A stretch of 64,000 nt of DNA from Parasegetibacter sp. NRK P23 (GTDB lineage Bacteria; Bacteroidota; Bacteroidia; Chitinophagales; Chitinophagaceae): positions 2,085,784 through 2,149,783 of the forward strand of contig NZ_JAMDLG010000001.1 in assembly GCF_023721715.1 (NCBI RefSeq), in the 5' to 3' direction. Both the position numbers and the translations under genes were made by a program. Below the pieces are notes generated by a model, which saw only the letters and a program-made list of their open reading frames with translations, did no database searches and was not told the origin of the DNA. Numbering within the stretch: the first letter of the stretch is position 1; the number at the start of each line of letters is the position of its first letter. This document shows positions 1-4,842 of the stretch, piece after piece.

Positions 1-645
1 GGGATGATCGTTCAGGATAAAAGAATACGGATTGTCGTGGCAGATCAGGATGTTTTTCTTCTTCCCAAAAGCGATCAGTTTTTCGAAGAAAGATGCTTCC
101 GGCAATTGTCCGGTGGGCATGTGCGGGTAATTCACCCACATCAGTTTCACCTTCGGTGTAAGCTGTTGTTCGATGGCTTCAAAATCGGGCTGCCAGTTGC
201 TTTCAGCATTCAGCTCGTAAGTCAGCGGAATACCTCCGGCCAGTTTTACAGCGCTGGCGTAAGTAGGATAACCGGGATCCGGGATCAGCGCGATATCTCC
301 TTCGTTGAGGTAGGTCATGCAAATGTGCATGATGCCTTCCTTCGATCCGATCAGCGGCAGTACTTCCGTATCGGGATTCAGTTCCACACCGTAAGCGCGT
401 TGGTACCAGTCGGCCATGGCTTTCCGGAGCTGCGGGATACCTTTATACCCCTGATAAGCGTGGTTTTCCGGCTGCGCCGCTGCTTCCTGGAGTACGCGGA
501 TCACTTCGGGGTGCGGGGGCAGATCGGGGCTGCCGATACCGAGGTTGATCACGGCTTTGCCGGCCTTGTTCAATTCCTCGATCTCCCTGAGTTTGGCGGA
601 GAAATAGTATTCGCCGATGCCGTTAAGTCTGTTCGCTGTTTGCAT
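1..645 (-). CDS. Class I/II aminotransferase, partial (C-terminus outside the window)
   Basis: The first 215 codons are present and the frame runs off the left edge. The protein opens MQTANRLNGIGEYYFSAK and carries the fold type I features of LL-diaminopimelate/alanine-type aminotransferases: INLGIGSPDLPPHP near residue 33, AYQGYKGIPQLRKAM near 63, and a PDPGYPTY segment. The PLP lysine would lie beyond the edge. It follows pheA after only 24 nt on the same strand, so it probably acts in the same aromatic pathway as the transaminase making phenylalanine or tyrosine from the arylpyruvate. In other Bacteroidota pheA, an aminotransferase, a prephenate dehydrogenase and a DAHP synthase/chorismate mutase often sit together; the last two would lie outside the window. 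Exact substrate is inferred from context. Confidence 0.85.
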   Translation of the reverse strand, partial: MQTANRLNGIGEYYFSAKLREIEELNKAGKAVINLGIGSPDLPPHPEVIRVLQEAAAQPENHAYQGYKGIPQLRKAMADWYQRAYGVELNPDTEVLPLIGSKEGIMHICMTYLNEGDIALIPDPGYPTYASAVKLAGGIPLTYELNAESNWQPDFEAIEQQLTPKVKLMWVNYPHMPTGQLPEASFFEKLIAFGKKKNILICHDNPYSFILNDHP

Positions 646-669
646 GTTTTGTTTTGCTTGCCTTGAATA

Positions 670-1509
670 TTATGAAGTGGCAGGGTTCTGTCCTTTTTTG
701 TAAACGCCGTACACTTTAAGATCGTTGGTAATGGGCTTAATGGCTTCAATTGTTTTGTGGAACTGGTCCATGGAATCGAATTCCATATCGGCATGAAAGG
801 AATATTTCCATTCGGAACCAGCGATCGGGAAAGATTGAAGCTTACTGAGGTTGATGCCGTGGTCGGCGATTTTAGTAAGCACTTTCGCCAGGCTTCCCTG
901 CGAATGATCGGTATGGAAATACAACGATGATTTGTTGGAAGCCTCGTCGGTAACCGCTTCGTTCTCTCTTTTCAGGATCAGGAAACGGGTATAATTGTTT
1001 TTGATGGAATGAATATTGGGTGCGATGATCTCCATGTTAAAAAGTTCCGCGGCGAGTTTACTGGCGATGGCAGCCGCGTGTTTCATACGGTGTTGGTGGA
1101 TGTGTTTCGCGCTGAGCGCGGTATCTTCCGTTTCCACAAGTTTCCAGTTTTGTTTATCGAGGTAATCGGTGCACTGGAGGAGTGCCATGGGGTGCGAATG
1201 TACTTCTCGTATGTCCTCCAACGTTACCCCCGGGTTGGCCATCAGGTGTTGGCGGATGTGGAGGTATACTTCTCCTACAATGCGCAGACTACTTTTCTGC
1301 AACAGGTTATAGTTCGGAAGAATACTCCCTGCGATAGAATTTTCAATCGCCATTACCGCGCCTTCGGATTCTTTCTTGGAAGAGGCCACCCGCACCACTT
1401 CCCTGAAAGTGGCGCAGGGAATCACTTCCACTTGTTTTCCGTAGAATTTCTCAGCGGCTTCCTGGTGGAAACTTCCTTCATAACCTTGTATGGATACTCT
1501 GTTCTGCAT
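670..1509 (-). CDS. pheA: Prephenate dehydratase
   Basis: Monofunctional prephenate dehydratase (279 aa), converting prephenate to phenylpyruvate in phenylalanine synthesis. There is no chorismate mutase domain. The PDT domain covers about residues 4-180, with ENSIAG at 56-61 and the diagnostic TRF at 174-176 (NNYTRFLIL). An ACT domain follows at about 195-270. In that domain the two motifs that bind phenylalanine in enteric PheA (GALV and ESRP) read GSLA (205-208) and QSFP (225-228), so feedback control may differ. The ATG lies just after an intrinsic terminator that belongs to an upstream Phe/Tyr-rich leader, so the gene is probably controlled by attenuation. The aminotransferase gene follows directly. 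Confidence 0.96.
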   Translation of the reverse strand: MQNRVSIQGYEGSFHQEAAEKFYGKQVEVIPCATFREVVRVASSKKESEGAVMAIENSIAGSILPNYNLLQKSSLRIVGEVYLHIRQHLMANPGVTLEDIREVHSHPMALLQCTDYLDKQNWKLVETEDTALSAKHIHQHRMKHAAAIASKLAAELFNMEIIAPNIHSIKNNYTRFLILKRENEAVTDEASNKSSLYFHTDHSQGSLAKVLTKIADHGINLSKLQSFPIAGSEWKYSFHADMEFDSMDQFHKTIEAIKPITNDLKVYGVYKKGQNPATS

Positions 1510-1523
1510 AATGGTATTAAAAC

Positions 1524-1554
1524 AAAAAGTCCCGGCGGTTGGCCGGGACTTTTT
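1524..1554 (-). terminator. Intrinsic terminator inside the pheA leader (attenuator)
   Basis: A perfect 13-bp stem (1524-1536 with 1542-1554) and a 5-nt loop. Read on the minus strand it ends in TTTTTGTTTT, the layout of a Rho-independent terminator. It lies between the leader peptide stop (1577) and the pheA start codon (1509), so it can stop transcription before the structural genes. Its upstream arm contains GTCCCGG, which is complementary to CCGGGAC inside the leader peptide gene (1594-1600). The two pairings exclude each other. Confidence 0.88.
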
Positions 1555-1576
1555 ACGTTTGGTATTTTTATTCGAT

Positions 1577-1660
1577 TCACCTTACATAAAGCGGTCCCGG
1601 TCCACTTGTAAAAAAGTAGAAGTAAAAATAAAATCCGGTAAACGCTTTGCTCAGGTTCAT
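1577..1660 (-). CDS. Phe/Tyr-rich leader peptide of the pheA operon
   Basis: A 27-codon ORF beginning ATG AAC CTG at 1660 and ending TGA at 1577-1579. Residues 10-17 are FYFYFYFF; in total six of 27 residues are Phe and four are Tyr. It lies about 20 nt after the predicted transcription start and 22 nt before the terminator stem. This is the architecture of enteric pheA and trp leader peptides: scarcity of the charged tRNA stalls the ribosome in the run, frees the downstream CCGGGAC segment (codons 21-23) to pair with the terminator arm, and lets RNA polymerase read through. Alternation of Phe and Tyr suggests that the operon senses both products. Composition, position and base pairing are visible; function is inferred. 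Confidence 0.85.
   Translation of the reverse strand: MNLSKAFTGFYFYFYFFTSGPGPLYVR
1594..1600 (-). promoter_or_regulatory. Antiterminator segment within the leader
   Basis: On the minus strand this is CCGGGAC, overlapping codons 21-23 of the leader peptide. It is an exact complement of GTCCCGG in the upstream arm of the terminator hairpin, and identical to part of the downstream arm. A ribosome finishing the leader would cover it; one stalled early in the Phe/Tyr run would leave it free. Confidence 0.7.
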
Positions 1661-1685
1661 GCTGATCGTTGCTTTATTATACCAC

Positions 1686-1715
1686 CAAAGTTATGAACTA
1701 ATACGAAGGCGCAAA
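1686..1715 (-). promoter_or_regulatory. Bacteroidota-type promoter of the pheA leader
   Basis: On the minus strand TTTG (1715-1712), an 18-nt spacer and TAACTTTG (1693-1686), a full match to the Bacteroidota -33/-7 pattern TTTG...TAnnTTTG. The transcript would start near 1680, about 20 nt before the leader peptide ATG. Confidence 0.75.
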
Positions 1716-1744
1716 ATATTTTTTGGAAATTTCAGAAAAAAGAC

Positions 1745-1768
1745 AAAAACAAACGGTTGTTTGTTTTT
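1745..1768 (-). terminator. Intrinsic terminator after the hypothetical/kinase pair
   Basis: A perfect 10-bp stem of AAAAACAAAC and its complement with a 4-nt loop, followed on the minus strand by a T-rich stretch. It lies directly after the stop of the gene at 1773 and before the pheA promoter, separating the two units. Confidence 0.7.
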
Positions 1769-1772
1769 CTGT

Positions 1773-2336
1773 TTACATAAGCCTGTTGCCGATTTGCTGA
1801 TCGATGATCGAGAAAAGATAATTGGGCTGAAACGTACGCCAGTTGGGCTGTTCCATCAATTCAACATATCGTGTAAGGCGGGCCCTTTTAAAATCGTATT
1901 GGGTTTGTTCGGGCATGTTCAGTATTACCACCCAGCCTTCTTCTTCTGAAACTTCTTCGTACCATTCTTCATAATATTCACTGTCGCTGCTGTGGAAGTT
2001 GAGCACATTCTCAGCAATCAGAATGAATTTAAAAATGCCTTCGGTTTCCAGTTTGTCCGTCACTTCGCGCTTCAGCGTCATCACATCGTTCTCCACGGCA
2101 TCGTTCCATTCTCCGATCAGTTCGATTACCGCGAAGCCCGATTCGTAATCCACGAACAACAGCTTCATATAAAGATTATACGCACCGAACTCATCCCATT
2201 GCGGATGGATATAATAGTTGTAAACAGTTTGAGAAAATTCAAACTCACTGTATTCCCGGCCATAAAAGGGAGACCGCGGATCATCTTCACTGGTGTACAA
2301 ATGCCTCCAGTTGTAAAAAGGTTCAATATCGTGCAT
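1773..2336 (-). CDS. Conserved hypothetical protein
   Basis: A 187-aa acidic, aromatic-rich protein with no signal peptide or membrane segment. It opens MHDIEPFYNWRHLYTSEDDP and contains many Trp, Tyr, Asp and Glu residues, including a very acidic YYEEWYEEVSEEEG stretch near 125-138. Composition and codon use look like those of neighbouring genes. I do not recognise a domain; proteins of this kind occur in Bacteroidota as uncharacterised families. It lies 8 nt downstream of the sugar kinase gene on the same strand, so the two are probably co-transcribed and end at the terminator at 1745-1768. Confidence 0.75.
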   Translation of the reverse strand: MHDIEPFYNWRHLYTSEDDPRSPFYGREYSEFEFSQTVYNYYIHPQWDEFGAYNLYMKLLFVDYESGFAVIELIGEWNDAVENDVMTLKREVTDKLETEGIFKFILIAENVLNFHSSDSEYYEEWYEEVSEEEGWVVILNMPEQTQYDFKRARLTRYVELMEQPNWRTFQPNYLFSIIDQQIGNRLM

Positions 2337-2344
2337 AGTAAAGG

Positions 2345-3187
2345 TTACTGGTGGAATTTAACCAGGCCATCCATGGGTTTCTGCAGTACCCGGCCCAGTT
2401 CCAACTCGTAACTATCACAAAGTTCCTTCAAAACATCTTTAAAACCATACGCCACGCCGCCAACAAAGTGAATGGGATACAACCAGGATTCCCTGTACTT
2501 GTACAGATGCTGGAATATGAAATCGCCCAGCCCGTCTTCTATAATGTTCTCAATCATGTAATGCCCGCGGTTCTCGGCGAGAAAAGCCGTAAAGGATGCA
2601 AGGTATTTATTGGGCAAAGGCTGCTTGTACACACGATCCAGTATTTCGTGGTGCGATGTATTGAACCGCAGTTCAAACGCTTCGTGCAACTGTGCGTCGA
2701 ACGTTTTATACAGATAATACTGAATCACTTTTTTGCCCAGGTAAGCGCCACTCCCTTCATCTCCTAATATAAAGCCCAGGGCGGGGTTGTTCTTCACGAT
2801 CTTTTTCCCGTTGAAGTAACAGGAATTGGAACCCGTTCCCAATATGCAGGCGATGCCTTTTTCGGTGCCGCACAAAGCGCGGGCGGCGGCCATCATATCT
2901 GTATCAACAATGGTTTTTGCGCCTTTAAAAACATGCTTCAGCGCCTTTTGAACTTTTTTTACATTTTCAGGATTACCGCAACCGGTGCCATAATAATATA
3001 CTTCTTCCACTTCCGCCTGTTTCACCGAAGGCCACAGTTCCTTCATCAAAAGCGCGGAGATTGTTTCCACATCCATCAGGTACGGACTGATGCCGCCGGT
3101 GAGCACGGTCTTTTTCCTGCCATTCTTCAGCAAACACCATTCTGTTTTCGTGGCCCCGCTATCGGCGATCAATTTTACAGGTGGCAT
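2345..3187 (-). CDS. BadF/BadG-type ATPase, likely N-acetylglucosamine kinase
   Basis: A 280-aa member of the ASKHA sugar kinase superfamily. The phosphate-1 motif DSGATKTEW is at residues 9-17, the phosphate-2 region CILGTGSNSCYFNGK lies near 113-127, and a GDEGSGAYLG motif follows near 142-151. These match N-acetylglucosamine kinase-like proteins of Bacteroidota, which phosphorylate amino sugars for cell wall recycling. The length fits the family. The substrate is inferred. The gene diverges from the ctpA-like protease at 3253 and is followed by a hypothetical gene. Confidence 0.85.
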   Translation of the reverse strand: MPPVKLIADSGATKTEWCLLKNGRKKTVLTGGISPYLMDVETISALLMKELWPSVKQAEVEEVYYYGTGCGNPENVKKVQKALKHVFKGAKTIVDTDMMAAARALCGTEKGIACILGTGSNSCYFNGKKIVKNNPALGFILGDEGSGAYLGKKVIQYYLYKTFDAQLHEAFELRFNTSHHEILDRVYKQPLPNKYLASFTAFLAENRGHYMIENIIEDGLGDFIFQHLYKYRESWLYPIHFVGGVAYGFKDVLKELCDSYELELGRVLQKPMDGLVKFHQ

Positions 3188-3252
3188 GATTATATAAAAT
3201 TAAATAGTGAAATTCGCACCAATATTAAGTCAAGTTACCGAAAGCGCAGAAA

Positions 3253-4842
3253 ATGAACAATAGAAAACTACAGGTATGGTTGCCCGCTTTGTTTGCACTG
3301 GTGATGGTGGCGGGCATGTACCTGGGATACAGGTTGCGGGAGAACACCAATACGGCAGGAAGTTTTTTCAGAATGGAAAAGAAATCGCCGCTCCAGGAGG
3401 TACTCGACCTGGTCCGGTTGAAATATGTAGACCCTATCAATACCGATACACTGGGTGATGACGCCATCCGTGAAATGCTGATGCACCTTGACCCCCATTC
3501 CGTTTTTATTCCGGCTTCCGATCTGAAGAACACCAACGCCGACCTGATGGGCAACTTTGATGGTATAGGCGTGGAGTTCCAGGTATTCAGCGATACCGTG
3601 AATGTGATGAATGTACTGAAAGGCGGTCCGTCTGATAAAGCAGGCCTTCAGGCCGGCGATAAACTCATCAGTGCCGACGGTAAACCACTTACCAAACCAA
3701 ATATTCAGTCGGAAGATATCCGCGTATTGCTCCGTGGCCCCCGTGATAGTAAAGTAGTACTGGGCATCATCAGGGGAGGTAAAGAAATTAAAGCAACCGT
3801 AACCCGTGGCCGCATTCCACTGCCCGCGCTGGACGCGGCTTATATGATTGAACCAGGAACCGGGTTCATCCGTATCAGCAAGTTTTCGGAGACTACGTAC
3901 GAAGAGTTCATGCAGTCGCTGGAAAAACTCCAGGCGCTGGGCATGAAGCAACTCATCCTTGATCTCCGCGGTAACGGCGGCGGATTACTGAATGAGGCGA
4001 TTGATATGGCCGATGAATTCCTGGACGACAATAAACTTATTGTTTATACGGAAGGCAACAAAGTACCGCGCCAGGATTACCGGGCCCGGAGGATGGGACT
4101 TTTCGAAAAAGGCGACCTGGTGCTACTGATGGATGAAAGTTCCGCTTCAGCCAGTGAAGTGCTGGCTGGCGCACTGCAGGACTGGGACCGCGCCACCATC
4201 GTGGGCAGAAGAAGTTTTGGGAAAGGATTGGTGCAGGAACAATACCAATTGGGCGATGGTTCAGCATTAAGAATCACTGTTGCCAGGTATTATACGCCCC
4301 TAGGCAGAAGTATTCAGAAACCTTATGATAAAGGCGTAAAAATTTACCAGGAGGAGGTAAGCGAACGTTTTCACAATGGTGAAGTGCTGCGTACCGATAC
4401 CGCTTACGCCGTGAACGGGAAAATATACAATACAAAATCCGGTAAAAAACTATACGGCGGTGGCGGCATTACGCCGGATGTAGTGGTTCCAATAGACACG
4501 TCATTATATGCGCCGGTGTTGAGTGAATTGTATGTAAAAGGCACAATTTCCAACTTTGTGTACAATTACTATCTCACGAATAAAAAAGAACTGGATGCGC
4601 TGAAAGGCCCGTCGGACCTGACGGGTTATCTTAACAACAAGGCCTTATTGCCGCTCCTGGTTGATTTTGCAAAGAAAGATTCCATCCGGGTACCGTCCCT
4701 GAATGCCGTTCAGCAAAACGAACTGGAACTGAGAACACGGAACCTGCTTGCCAGGCAAATCTGGCGGAGCGAAGGCTATTTTGAACTGAGTAACGCCACG
4801 GACCCGGTAGTACAACAGGCTTTGAAAACTTTACACCAATAG
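3253..4842 (+). CDS. S41 family C-terminal processing peptidase
   Basis: A 529-aa periplasmic protease of the Tsp/Prc/CtpA type. A signal anchor covers about residues 7-26. A PDZ domain follows at about 95-175 (GGPSDKAGLQAGDKLIS), then the S41 catalytic domain with the LDLRGNGGGLL core. The catalytic serine lies in DESSASASE (about residue 299) and the general-base lysine in FGKGLVQ (324); the 25-residue spacing is that of Prc. The C-terminal part carries a GGGGITPDVVVP element typical of the family. It would trim or degrade periplasmic proteins from their C-termini. The gene starts 65 nt from the divergent kinase and precedes the cysteine synthase gene by 25 nt. Confidence 0.93.
   Translation: MNNRKLQVWLPALFALVMVAGMYLGYRLRENTNTAGSFFRMEKKSPLQEVLDLVRLKYVDPINTDTLGDDAIREMLMHLDPHSVFIPASDLKNTNADLMGNFDGIGVEFQVFSDTVNVMNVLKGGPSDKAGLQAGDKLISADGKPLTKPNIQSEDIRVLLRGPRDSKVVLGIIRGGKEIKATVTRGRIPLPALDAAYMIEPGTGFIRISKFSETTYEEFMQSLEKLQALGMKQLILDLRGNGGGLLNEAIDMADEFLDDNKLIVYTEGNKVPRQDYRARRMGLFEKGDLVLLMDESSASASEVLAGALQDWDRATIVGRRSFGKGLVQEQYQLGDGSALRITVARYYTPLGRSIQKPYDKGVKIYQEEVSERFHNGEVLRTDTAYAVNGKIYNTKSGKKLYGGGGITPDVVVPIDTSLYAPVLSELYVKGTISNFVYNYYLTNKKELDALKGPSDLTGYLNNKALLPLLVDFAKKDSIRVPSLNAVQQNELELRTRNLLARQIWRSEGYFELSNATDPVVQQALKTLHQ

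Follow-up and report, generated by a model that had tools for sequence, protein, structure and literature searches.

A probable Phe/Tyr leader-peptide attenuator upstream of the aromatic amino acid operon in Bacteroidota, with tandem forms in two families

The leader and the genes behind it

The element lies on the minus strand of the window (the whole stretch of 64,000 nucleotides that was analysed). A -33 promoter element TTTG (1712..1715) and a -7 element TAACTTTG (1686..1693) predict a transcription start near 1681. They are followed by a leader ORF of 27 codons, MNLSKAFTGFYFYFYFFTSGPGPLYVR (1577..1660), whose residues 10-17 are the putative regulatory codons FYFYFYFF (1610..1633), and by an intrinsic terminator (1524..1554) with a 13-bp stem, arms at 1554-1542 and 1536-1524, and a T run. 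The terminator ends 14 nt before the start codon of pheA (1509). Direct reading of the minus strand thus confirmed each part named in a preliminary description of this DNA: the promoter, the 27-codon ORF with FYFYFYFF, a CCGGGAC segment and the 13-bp terminator before pheA.

Three RNA segments upstream of the last terminator arm, segment 4, can pair in alternative ways. Segment 1, the putative protector (1635..1648), consists of AAAGCG and CCGG; segment 2 (1584..1600) of CCGGGAC (1600-1594) and UUUAUGU (1590-1584); and segment 3 (1543..1558) of ACGUAAA and GUCCCGG, serving both as the 3' side of the antiterminator and as the 5' arm of the terminator. The pairing of CCGGGAC with GTCCCGG noted in the preliminary description is real but makes up only half of the antiterminator, the other half being formed by UUUAUGU (1590-1584), which is able to pair with ACGUAAA (1558-1552). 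The region 1512-1678 has a predicted fold of -46.8 kcal/mol (z -3.96 relative to 200 shuffles), in which segment 1 pairs with segment 2 through AAAGCG (1648-1643) with CGCUUU (1593-1588) and through CCGG (1638-1635) with CCGG (1600-1597). The locus combines a short ORF rich in end-product codons, an intrinsic terminator between this ORF and the first gene, and an antiterminator competing with the terminator whose 5' side lies 3' of the regulatory codons. The protector hairpin 1:2 is also found in the window's set of loci, and is unsupported in the single leaders of two other families (f9 and f2, see below).

The first gene, pheA (670..1509, minus strand), encodes a prephenate dehydratase (PF00800, E 8.5e-58), with matches to the NCBIfam prephenate dehydratase models below the model cut-offs and an ACT domain match below the Pfam cut-off. 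It is followed on the same strand by a class I/II aminotransferase (1..645, PF00155) that is cut by the window edge and is whole, with 386 aa, in locus L002. There, past the window edge, the gene order on one strand is pheA, aminotransferase, tyrA (prephenate dehydrogenase; PF02153, PF20463), a DEAD-box RNA helicase with a DbpA RNA-binding domain (L002:10693-12357, PF00270), DAHP synthase/chorismate mutase (PF00793, PF01817), aroB (PF01761), aroA (PF00275) and aroC (PF01264). We infer that the genes from pheA to aroC form one transcript. The guess, made from the window sequence, that the leader would control both branches was right in that tyrA, DAHP synthase/chorismate mutase, aroB, aroA and aroC lie downstream on the same strand. 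Across 20 long loci of the window's family, pheA, aminotransferase, tyrA and DAHP synthase genes succeed one another on one strand in all 20 (intervening genes outside this count), with aroB also following in 19. In six of the 20, a helicase gene separates tyrA from the DAHP synthase gene within the operon.

Conservation of the leader ORF in relatives

Our first set comprised 97 pheA loci: 91 from 89 genomes of the window's family, drawn from the better-scoring matches listed for 275 pheA-positive genomes, and six named records that include a Chitinophagales MAG, two Alistipes MAGs and a Flavobacteriaceae genome. Scanning for ATG-started ORFs found a Phe/Tyr run within 500 nt upstream of pheA in 95 of the 97 loci. 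The scan missed two: L082, which carries the leader behind a GTG start, and L007, from a Saprospiraceae MAG, in which no Phe/Tyr leader was found upstream of pheA. Expressed as residue density, at least 6 F/Y in 9 residues occur in 95/97 upstream regions and at least 7 in 9 in 93/97; among 454 tiles of 560 nt, cut with overlap from both strands of the window, each threshold was reached by an ATG-started ORF in only two, both containing this leader. The recurrence of the run is far above chance. The preliminary description had proposed looking for such a leader in relatives and had held that its absence there would count against the idea; no such absence occurred.

A scripted terminator was found in 92 of the 95 loci with a leader ORF. 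Excluding the two loci missed by the ATG scan, three lacking a scripted terminator and four duplicate extracts (two from one genome twice) left 88 loci, seven of which have poorly scoring terminators and were omitted from the swap tests described below (81 loci). In the 88 loci the runs measure 7-13 codons and are in frame with the ATG, and their 868 codons include 342 TTT, 170 TAC, 147 TAT and 137 TTC. Because leader ORFs were selected for F/Y content, some of the purity of the runs follows from the selection itself; this does not hold for the mixed third positions or for the loose frame downstream. A CCGGG core lies within 30 nt of the run in 69 of the 88 loci, starting 8-12 nt past it, in frame 0 relative to the run in 49, frame 1 in six and frame 2 in 14. 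Its presence in all three frames indicates that the frame is maintained only as far as the run.

These observations bear on a different reading, in which the pyrimidine-rich stretch serves as the binding site of a regulatory protein that controls the terminator, rather than as a series of codons. The T-richness of the run would suit such a site, translation of the leader is a prediction, and the selection of ORFs by F/Y content flatters the codon view. A protein site, on the other hand, would hardly explain ATG-framed runs of 7-13 codons with mixed third positions in 88 loci, a reading frame kept only as far as the run, or the retention of the F/Y run amid different flanks in distant families. 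We consider protein binding very improbable.

The leader peptides also share their ends, with TKAY ahead of the run and, in many of them, PGMLLL past it. Since the RNA helices co-vary (see below), these conserved ends are likely by-products of RNA pairing.

Pairing of the leader RNA

To each helix we applied a swap test, comparing the pairing energy of a locus's own segments with that of swapped ones. For the antiterminator 2:3, own pairing averaged -21.48 against -17.93 kcal/mol for swapped pairing and was better than the mean swapped value in 77 of 81 loci and in all 36 divergent representatives (<0.80 similarity); permuted sets gave -17.98 (sd 0.26), and the lowest of 2000 permutations, -18.87, did not reach the own value. 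The protector 1:2 showed a smaller difference (own -12.20 vs swapped -10.76 kcal/mol; own better in 61/81 loci and 29/36 representatives), again below all of 5000 permutations (-10.78, sd 0.26, lowest -11.74). The terminator 3:4 had the better own pairing in 74/81 loci. The control pairs 1:3 (32/81) and 2:4 (44/81) showed no own advantage, which argues against base composition as the source of the 2:3 difference.

Covariation was scored on alignment A1, which holds 77 of the 88 loci. The scores for 2:3, 3:4 and 1:2 were 0.140, 0.216 and 0.250, with best slid controls of 0.073, 0.116 and 0.185 respectively, and for all three helices both the covariation score and the number of cells paired exceeded all 500 shuffles and every slid control. 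The terminator is the clearest case: 86.5% of its cells are paired in relatives, 52 cells are changed on both sides, and every covariation measure beats shuffles and slid controls. Two other measures were less decisive for the remaining two helices. Pairs changed on both sides were matched in 7/500 shuffles and by one slid version (equal at 12) for 2:3, and in 159/500 shuffles for 1:2, where slid versions reached 6 vs 5. Further pair types were as frequent in 151/500 shuffles for 2:3, with one slid version higher (29 vs 27), and in 40/500 for 1:2, with slid versions up to 18 vs 15. Taken globally, comparison of the sequences indicates that antiterminator, terminator and protector all co-vary; the paired changes that had been predicted for both hairpins are seen, and own energies fall outside all permutations.

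A constitutive terminator, a ligand-binding riboswitch or a T-box, with the ORF incidental, would account for the strong terminator. A plain terminator, however, has no need of a 2:3 helix, which here co-varies. As for riboswitches and T-boxes, no such family of Rfam 15 was found at the gathering threshold in 20 loci, where the only match was a tRNA, nor among the three weak Rfam matches (up to E 1) that positions 1-3600 of the window yielded. This group of explanations appears to us exceedingly improbable.

Proposed mechanism

The conserved leader, the paired changes in its hairpins and the advantage of own over swapped pairing all support the attenuator interpretation given in the preliminary description: the element is very probably a ribosome-mediated transcription attenuator of the aromatic operon. 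Mechanistically, RNA polymerase would start about 20 nt upstream of the leader ORF, as predicted from the promoter, and a ribosome would translate the leader. A shortage of Phe-tRNA or Tyr-tRNA would stall the ribosome in the alternating run, where it would hide segment 1 and leave segment 2 free to form the long 2:3 antiterminator. The terminator would then not form, and transcription would read through into pheA, the aminotransferase gene, tyrA and the aro genes. With both tRNAs plentiful, the ribosome would reach the stop codon and cover or sweep segment 2, so that 3:4 would form and transcription end near 1524. Without translation, 1:2 would form, and the terminator would again be favoured.

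By alternating Phe and Tyr codons the leader would respond to a lack of either amino acid and thus act as an OR sensor, a logic that fits an operon making both Phe and Tyr. One could argue for a real attenuator responsive in practice to a single amino acid, given that Phe outnumbers Tyr in the runs of the 88 loci (479 vs 317 of 868 residues). The leaders listed nevertheless mix both kinds of codon, and the operon also includes tyrA and DAHP synthase; a response to only one amino acid is accordingly unlikely, if less so than the explanations dismissed above.

Promoter and transcript start

The motif TAnnTTTG is found within 60 nt of the leader ATG in 73/88 loci, compared with 0/88, 1/88 and 1/84 in three control stretches further upstream. 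Relaxed to TAnnTTYG, the box is present in 79 loci, of which 61 have a TTG starting 21-23 nt upstream of it and 69 have only 4-10 nt between the end of the box and the leader ATG. In Flavobacterium psychrophilum the -7 box is placed at -12 to -5 in the text sections of PMC9723704, and this spacing would put the transcript start 0-6 nt before the ATG. Judged by box position, leader transcripts in the window's family are thus probably for the most part nearly leaderless; the same text puts leaderless mRNAs at only 5.5% in F. psychrophilum. The window itself is an exception, with 25 nt between the -7 box and the leader ATG. The GTG-started leaders of L082 and L117 lie 4 nt behind a -7 box, a spacing at which transcription would seem to start on the GTG itself.

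Distribution in the class and phylum

A model of the leader, R1 (150 positions, 21 pairs), recovered the leader site in the window's own genome with E 6.2e-17, the next best hit having E 0.005. Among 395 genomes of the phylum, 340 have a pheA match and 105 an R1 hit at E <=0.01. Considering the best hits of 97 of these 105 genomes, with pheA positions from the best matches listed, 67 lie upstream of pheA on its strand (50 of 55 at E <=1e-4). The distance to pheA is within 130 nt for 63 of the 67 and about 3.5 kb for three, which stand at the head of a DAHPS-aroB-aroA-pheA operon; the remaining one, at 4.7 kb in G401, is probably a chance hit. Weak R1 hits, often distant from pheA, were not counted as leaders. 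We also discarded the R1-hit loci of G031, G708, G022 (second site), G665 and G655, in which an F/Y ORF was absent, and, by eye, the ORFs at G535 and at the second G447 site.

The ORF scan extended this picture. Rescanning 42 R1-hit loci gave a leader ORF in 41, L117 having a GTG-started one. Twenty further pheA loci, made up of 19 of the 22 listed without an R1 hit plus that of G768 (hit elsewhere), contained a Phe/Tyr-run leader in 15 cases (L135-L145, L147, L149, L152 and L153); the scan showed a doubtful ORF upstream of pheA in L148 and no Phe/Tyr leader there in L146, L150, L151 and L154. At the pheA locus of G609 no Phe/Tyr leader was found.

For the window's class this amounts to a leader before pheA or its operon in 79 of the 92 sampled genomes that bear pheA, recognised through the position of the R1 hit in 63 and through the ORF scan in 16. 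The 13 class genomes in which none was found are concentrated in three families (labelled by handles f1 to f54): all eight of f4, all three of f10 and two of f8. In f4 (L175-L182) and f10 (L183-L185) no Phe/Tyr leader was found up to 700 nt upstream of pheA. In one f4 locus, L175, pheA apparently starts a few dozen bases past the end of another gene. Outside the class, the leader was found upstream of pheA in L137, L116, L247 and L248.

Tandem leaders

For families f9 and f2 we surveyed the 60 best-scoring loci, 30 of 46 pheA-positive genomes of f9 and 30 of 38 of f2. Two Phe/Tyr ORFs in series are found in 26 of the 60 loci (11 in f9, 15 in f2), a single one in 29 and none in five. In the first set of 97 loci no convincing tandem leader was found, the window itself being single; L029 and L030, flagged as double by the scan, have an extra ORF lacking a clean run and were set aside by eye.

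Both leaders have a scripted terminator in 20 of the 26 tandem loci, only the first in one and only the second in five. The second ATG lies 14-43 nt past the first terminator in 20 of 21 loci (in the other, L195, the first terminator was mis-picked), so that a promoter would hardly fit between the leaders. In f2 the promoter box precedes 13/15 first leaders and 0/15 second leaders. In f9 the strict box is found in 0/11 first, 0/11 second and 1/17 single leaders, and is uninformative, as first and single leaders lack it too. The two leaders would therefore share one transcript.

Each leader appears to form its own antiterminator. For 2:3, own pairing gave -21.13 vs -13.97 swapped in second leaders (own better in 25/25 loci) and -17.52 vs -12.37 in first leaders (19/21, mis-picked L195 included), contrasts that pooling the two families enlarges. 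Within families, the own value lay below the lowest permutation for first leaders of f9 (-14.01, lowest -13.89) and f2 (-21.39, lowest -21.06) and for second leaders of f2 (-19.86, lowest -16.28); for second leaders of f9 (-22.74) one permutation reached -23.14. The protector 1:2 is supported in first leaders (own -16.43, lowest permutation -14.93), is not clear in second leaders, where the own value of -13.72 was reached by one permutation (-13.92), and is unsupported in single leaders of the two families, where own pairing was the better one in 12/26. In the 20 loci with both leaders usable, own pairing reached -19.77 vs -14.11 and -12.93 for the two cross pairings.

A division of labour, with one leader sensing Phe and the other Tyr, is not supported by the codon counts: first leaders carry 108 F and 95 Y codons, second leaders 129 F and 101 Y (the leaders of L239 being mislabelled in this count). 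Because both leaders are alike in carrying Phe and Tyr codons, the tandem arrangement is likely, as read from the codons, to gate one signal in series.

Discussion

The textbook picture of leader-peptide attenuation comes from enteric bacteria, in which translation initiation at Shine-Dalgarno sequences sets the timing of the ribosome relative to the polymerase. In the present case, leader attenuation is apparently the standing control of the entire aromatic operon in a large part of a class that starts translation differently. Joining the lines of comparison above leads to a composite reading whose chances we judge to be evenly balanced: that the Phe-or-Tyr attenuator is old within the class; that in f9 and f2 it would be present as twin self-pairing copies on one transcript, whose read-through would multiply to give a steeper and less leaky response; and that in the window's family its ORF would lie mostly within about 6 nt of the 5' end, almost without a 5' untranslated region. 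The probably nearly leaderless transcripts of one family and the duplicated series switches of two others would be natural tests of attenuation gain, which can be tested against the type of translation start and the number of terminators. The leader can also serve as a sequence marker when regulated aromatic operons are annotated in Bacteroidota.

Leaders in the same style were seen before other genes. In the window's own genome, an ORF with a run of His codons, MNTFTHKHHHHNLPQG, lies upstream of hisG (L267), followed by a hairpin-like stretch and a T-rich run, and an ORF with three consecutive Trp codons, MIGKTQNIQWWWHTNLNRGR, lies upstream of the gene for anthranilate synthase component I (L268), with a GC-rich hairpin and a T run downstream. 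In two loci a leader that combines Phe, Tyr and Trp codons, SFYFYWFYFTGRGWLL (SFYFYWFYF; L158:313-394, L159:270-351), stands before a gene for DAHP synthase/chorismate mutase, an enzyme whose DAHP synthase step is common to the three aromatic amino acids. Of the remaining seven operon genes, none was found downstream in these two loci; the end of a tyrA lies just upstream in L159. Phe/Tyr leaders also stand upstream of DAHPS-aroB-aroA (L162) and of two genes that, by eye, resemble DAHP synthases (L161).

Enteric pheL carries Phe codons only and is responsive to phenylalanine. Shared with the enterobacterial pheL-pheA system (RF01859) are Phe codons in a leader peptide, hairpins that compete, and an intrinsic terminator upstream of pheA, and the leader gives a weak full-length match to that model (Phe_leader); at 24.6 bits against a gathering score of 55, membership of this existing Rfam family was rejected. 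Unlike pheL-pheA, it has a mixed Phe/Tyr run and heads a joint Phe-Tyr-shikimate operon, and it also differs in sequence and in the type of promoter.

A comparative study of attenuators from 2004 is said to have named Bacteroidetes, and a phe attenuator may have been predicted there earlier. Closer to the present case, in the same phylum and at the same gene, the text sections of PMC9723704 describe for F. psychrophilum a structured 5' element upstream of pheA that also occurs in other Flavobacteriaceae genera and has no Rfam hits, together with clues for leader-peptide attenuation upstream of amino acid operons. The novelty claimed in the preliminary description was in part overstated, this element and these clues having already been published; those same sections do not give the leader sequence, the Phe/Tyr logic, the alternative pairing or a distribution beyond Flavobacteriaceae. 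Elsewhere, passages of PMC7366714 on Bacteroides thetaiotaomicron note short ORFs in long 5' UTRs reminiscent of leader peptides, with pheA unmentioned in them; no word beginning with Bacteroid or pheA occurs in the text portion of PMC2965389; and part of the text of PMC1262725 states that in Actinobacteria such structures were not found upstream of Phe operons. The literature searched, with subscription journals mostly outside it, yielded no recognised mixed Phe/Tyr leader and no tandem leaders for the same signal. The kind of mechanism is thus old, while the two-amino-acid run, its class-wide reach, the nearly leaderless start and the tandem form appear to be new, at least to us.

The nearest parallel to the tandem leaders is Salmonella mgtCBR, where, according to sections of PMC3641672, two short ORFs in one leader mRNA form tandem attenuators that each act on transcription, answer to ATP and proline, and are called a singular example. 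In 26 of the 60 f9 and f2 loci, one operon is likewise preceded by two successive leader ORFs; unlike those of mgtCBR as described in these sections, both ORFs carry Phe/Tyr codons.
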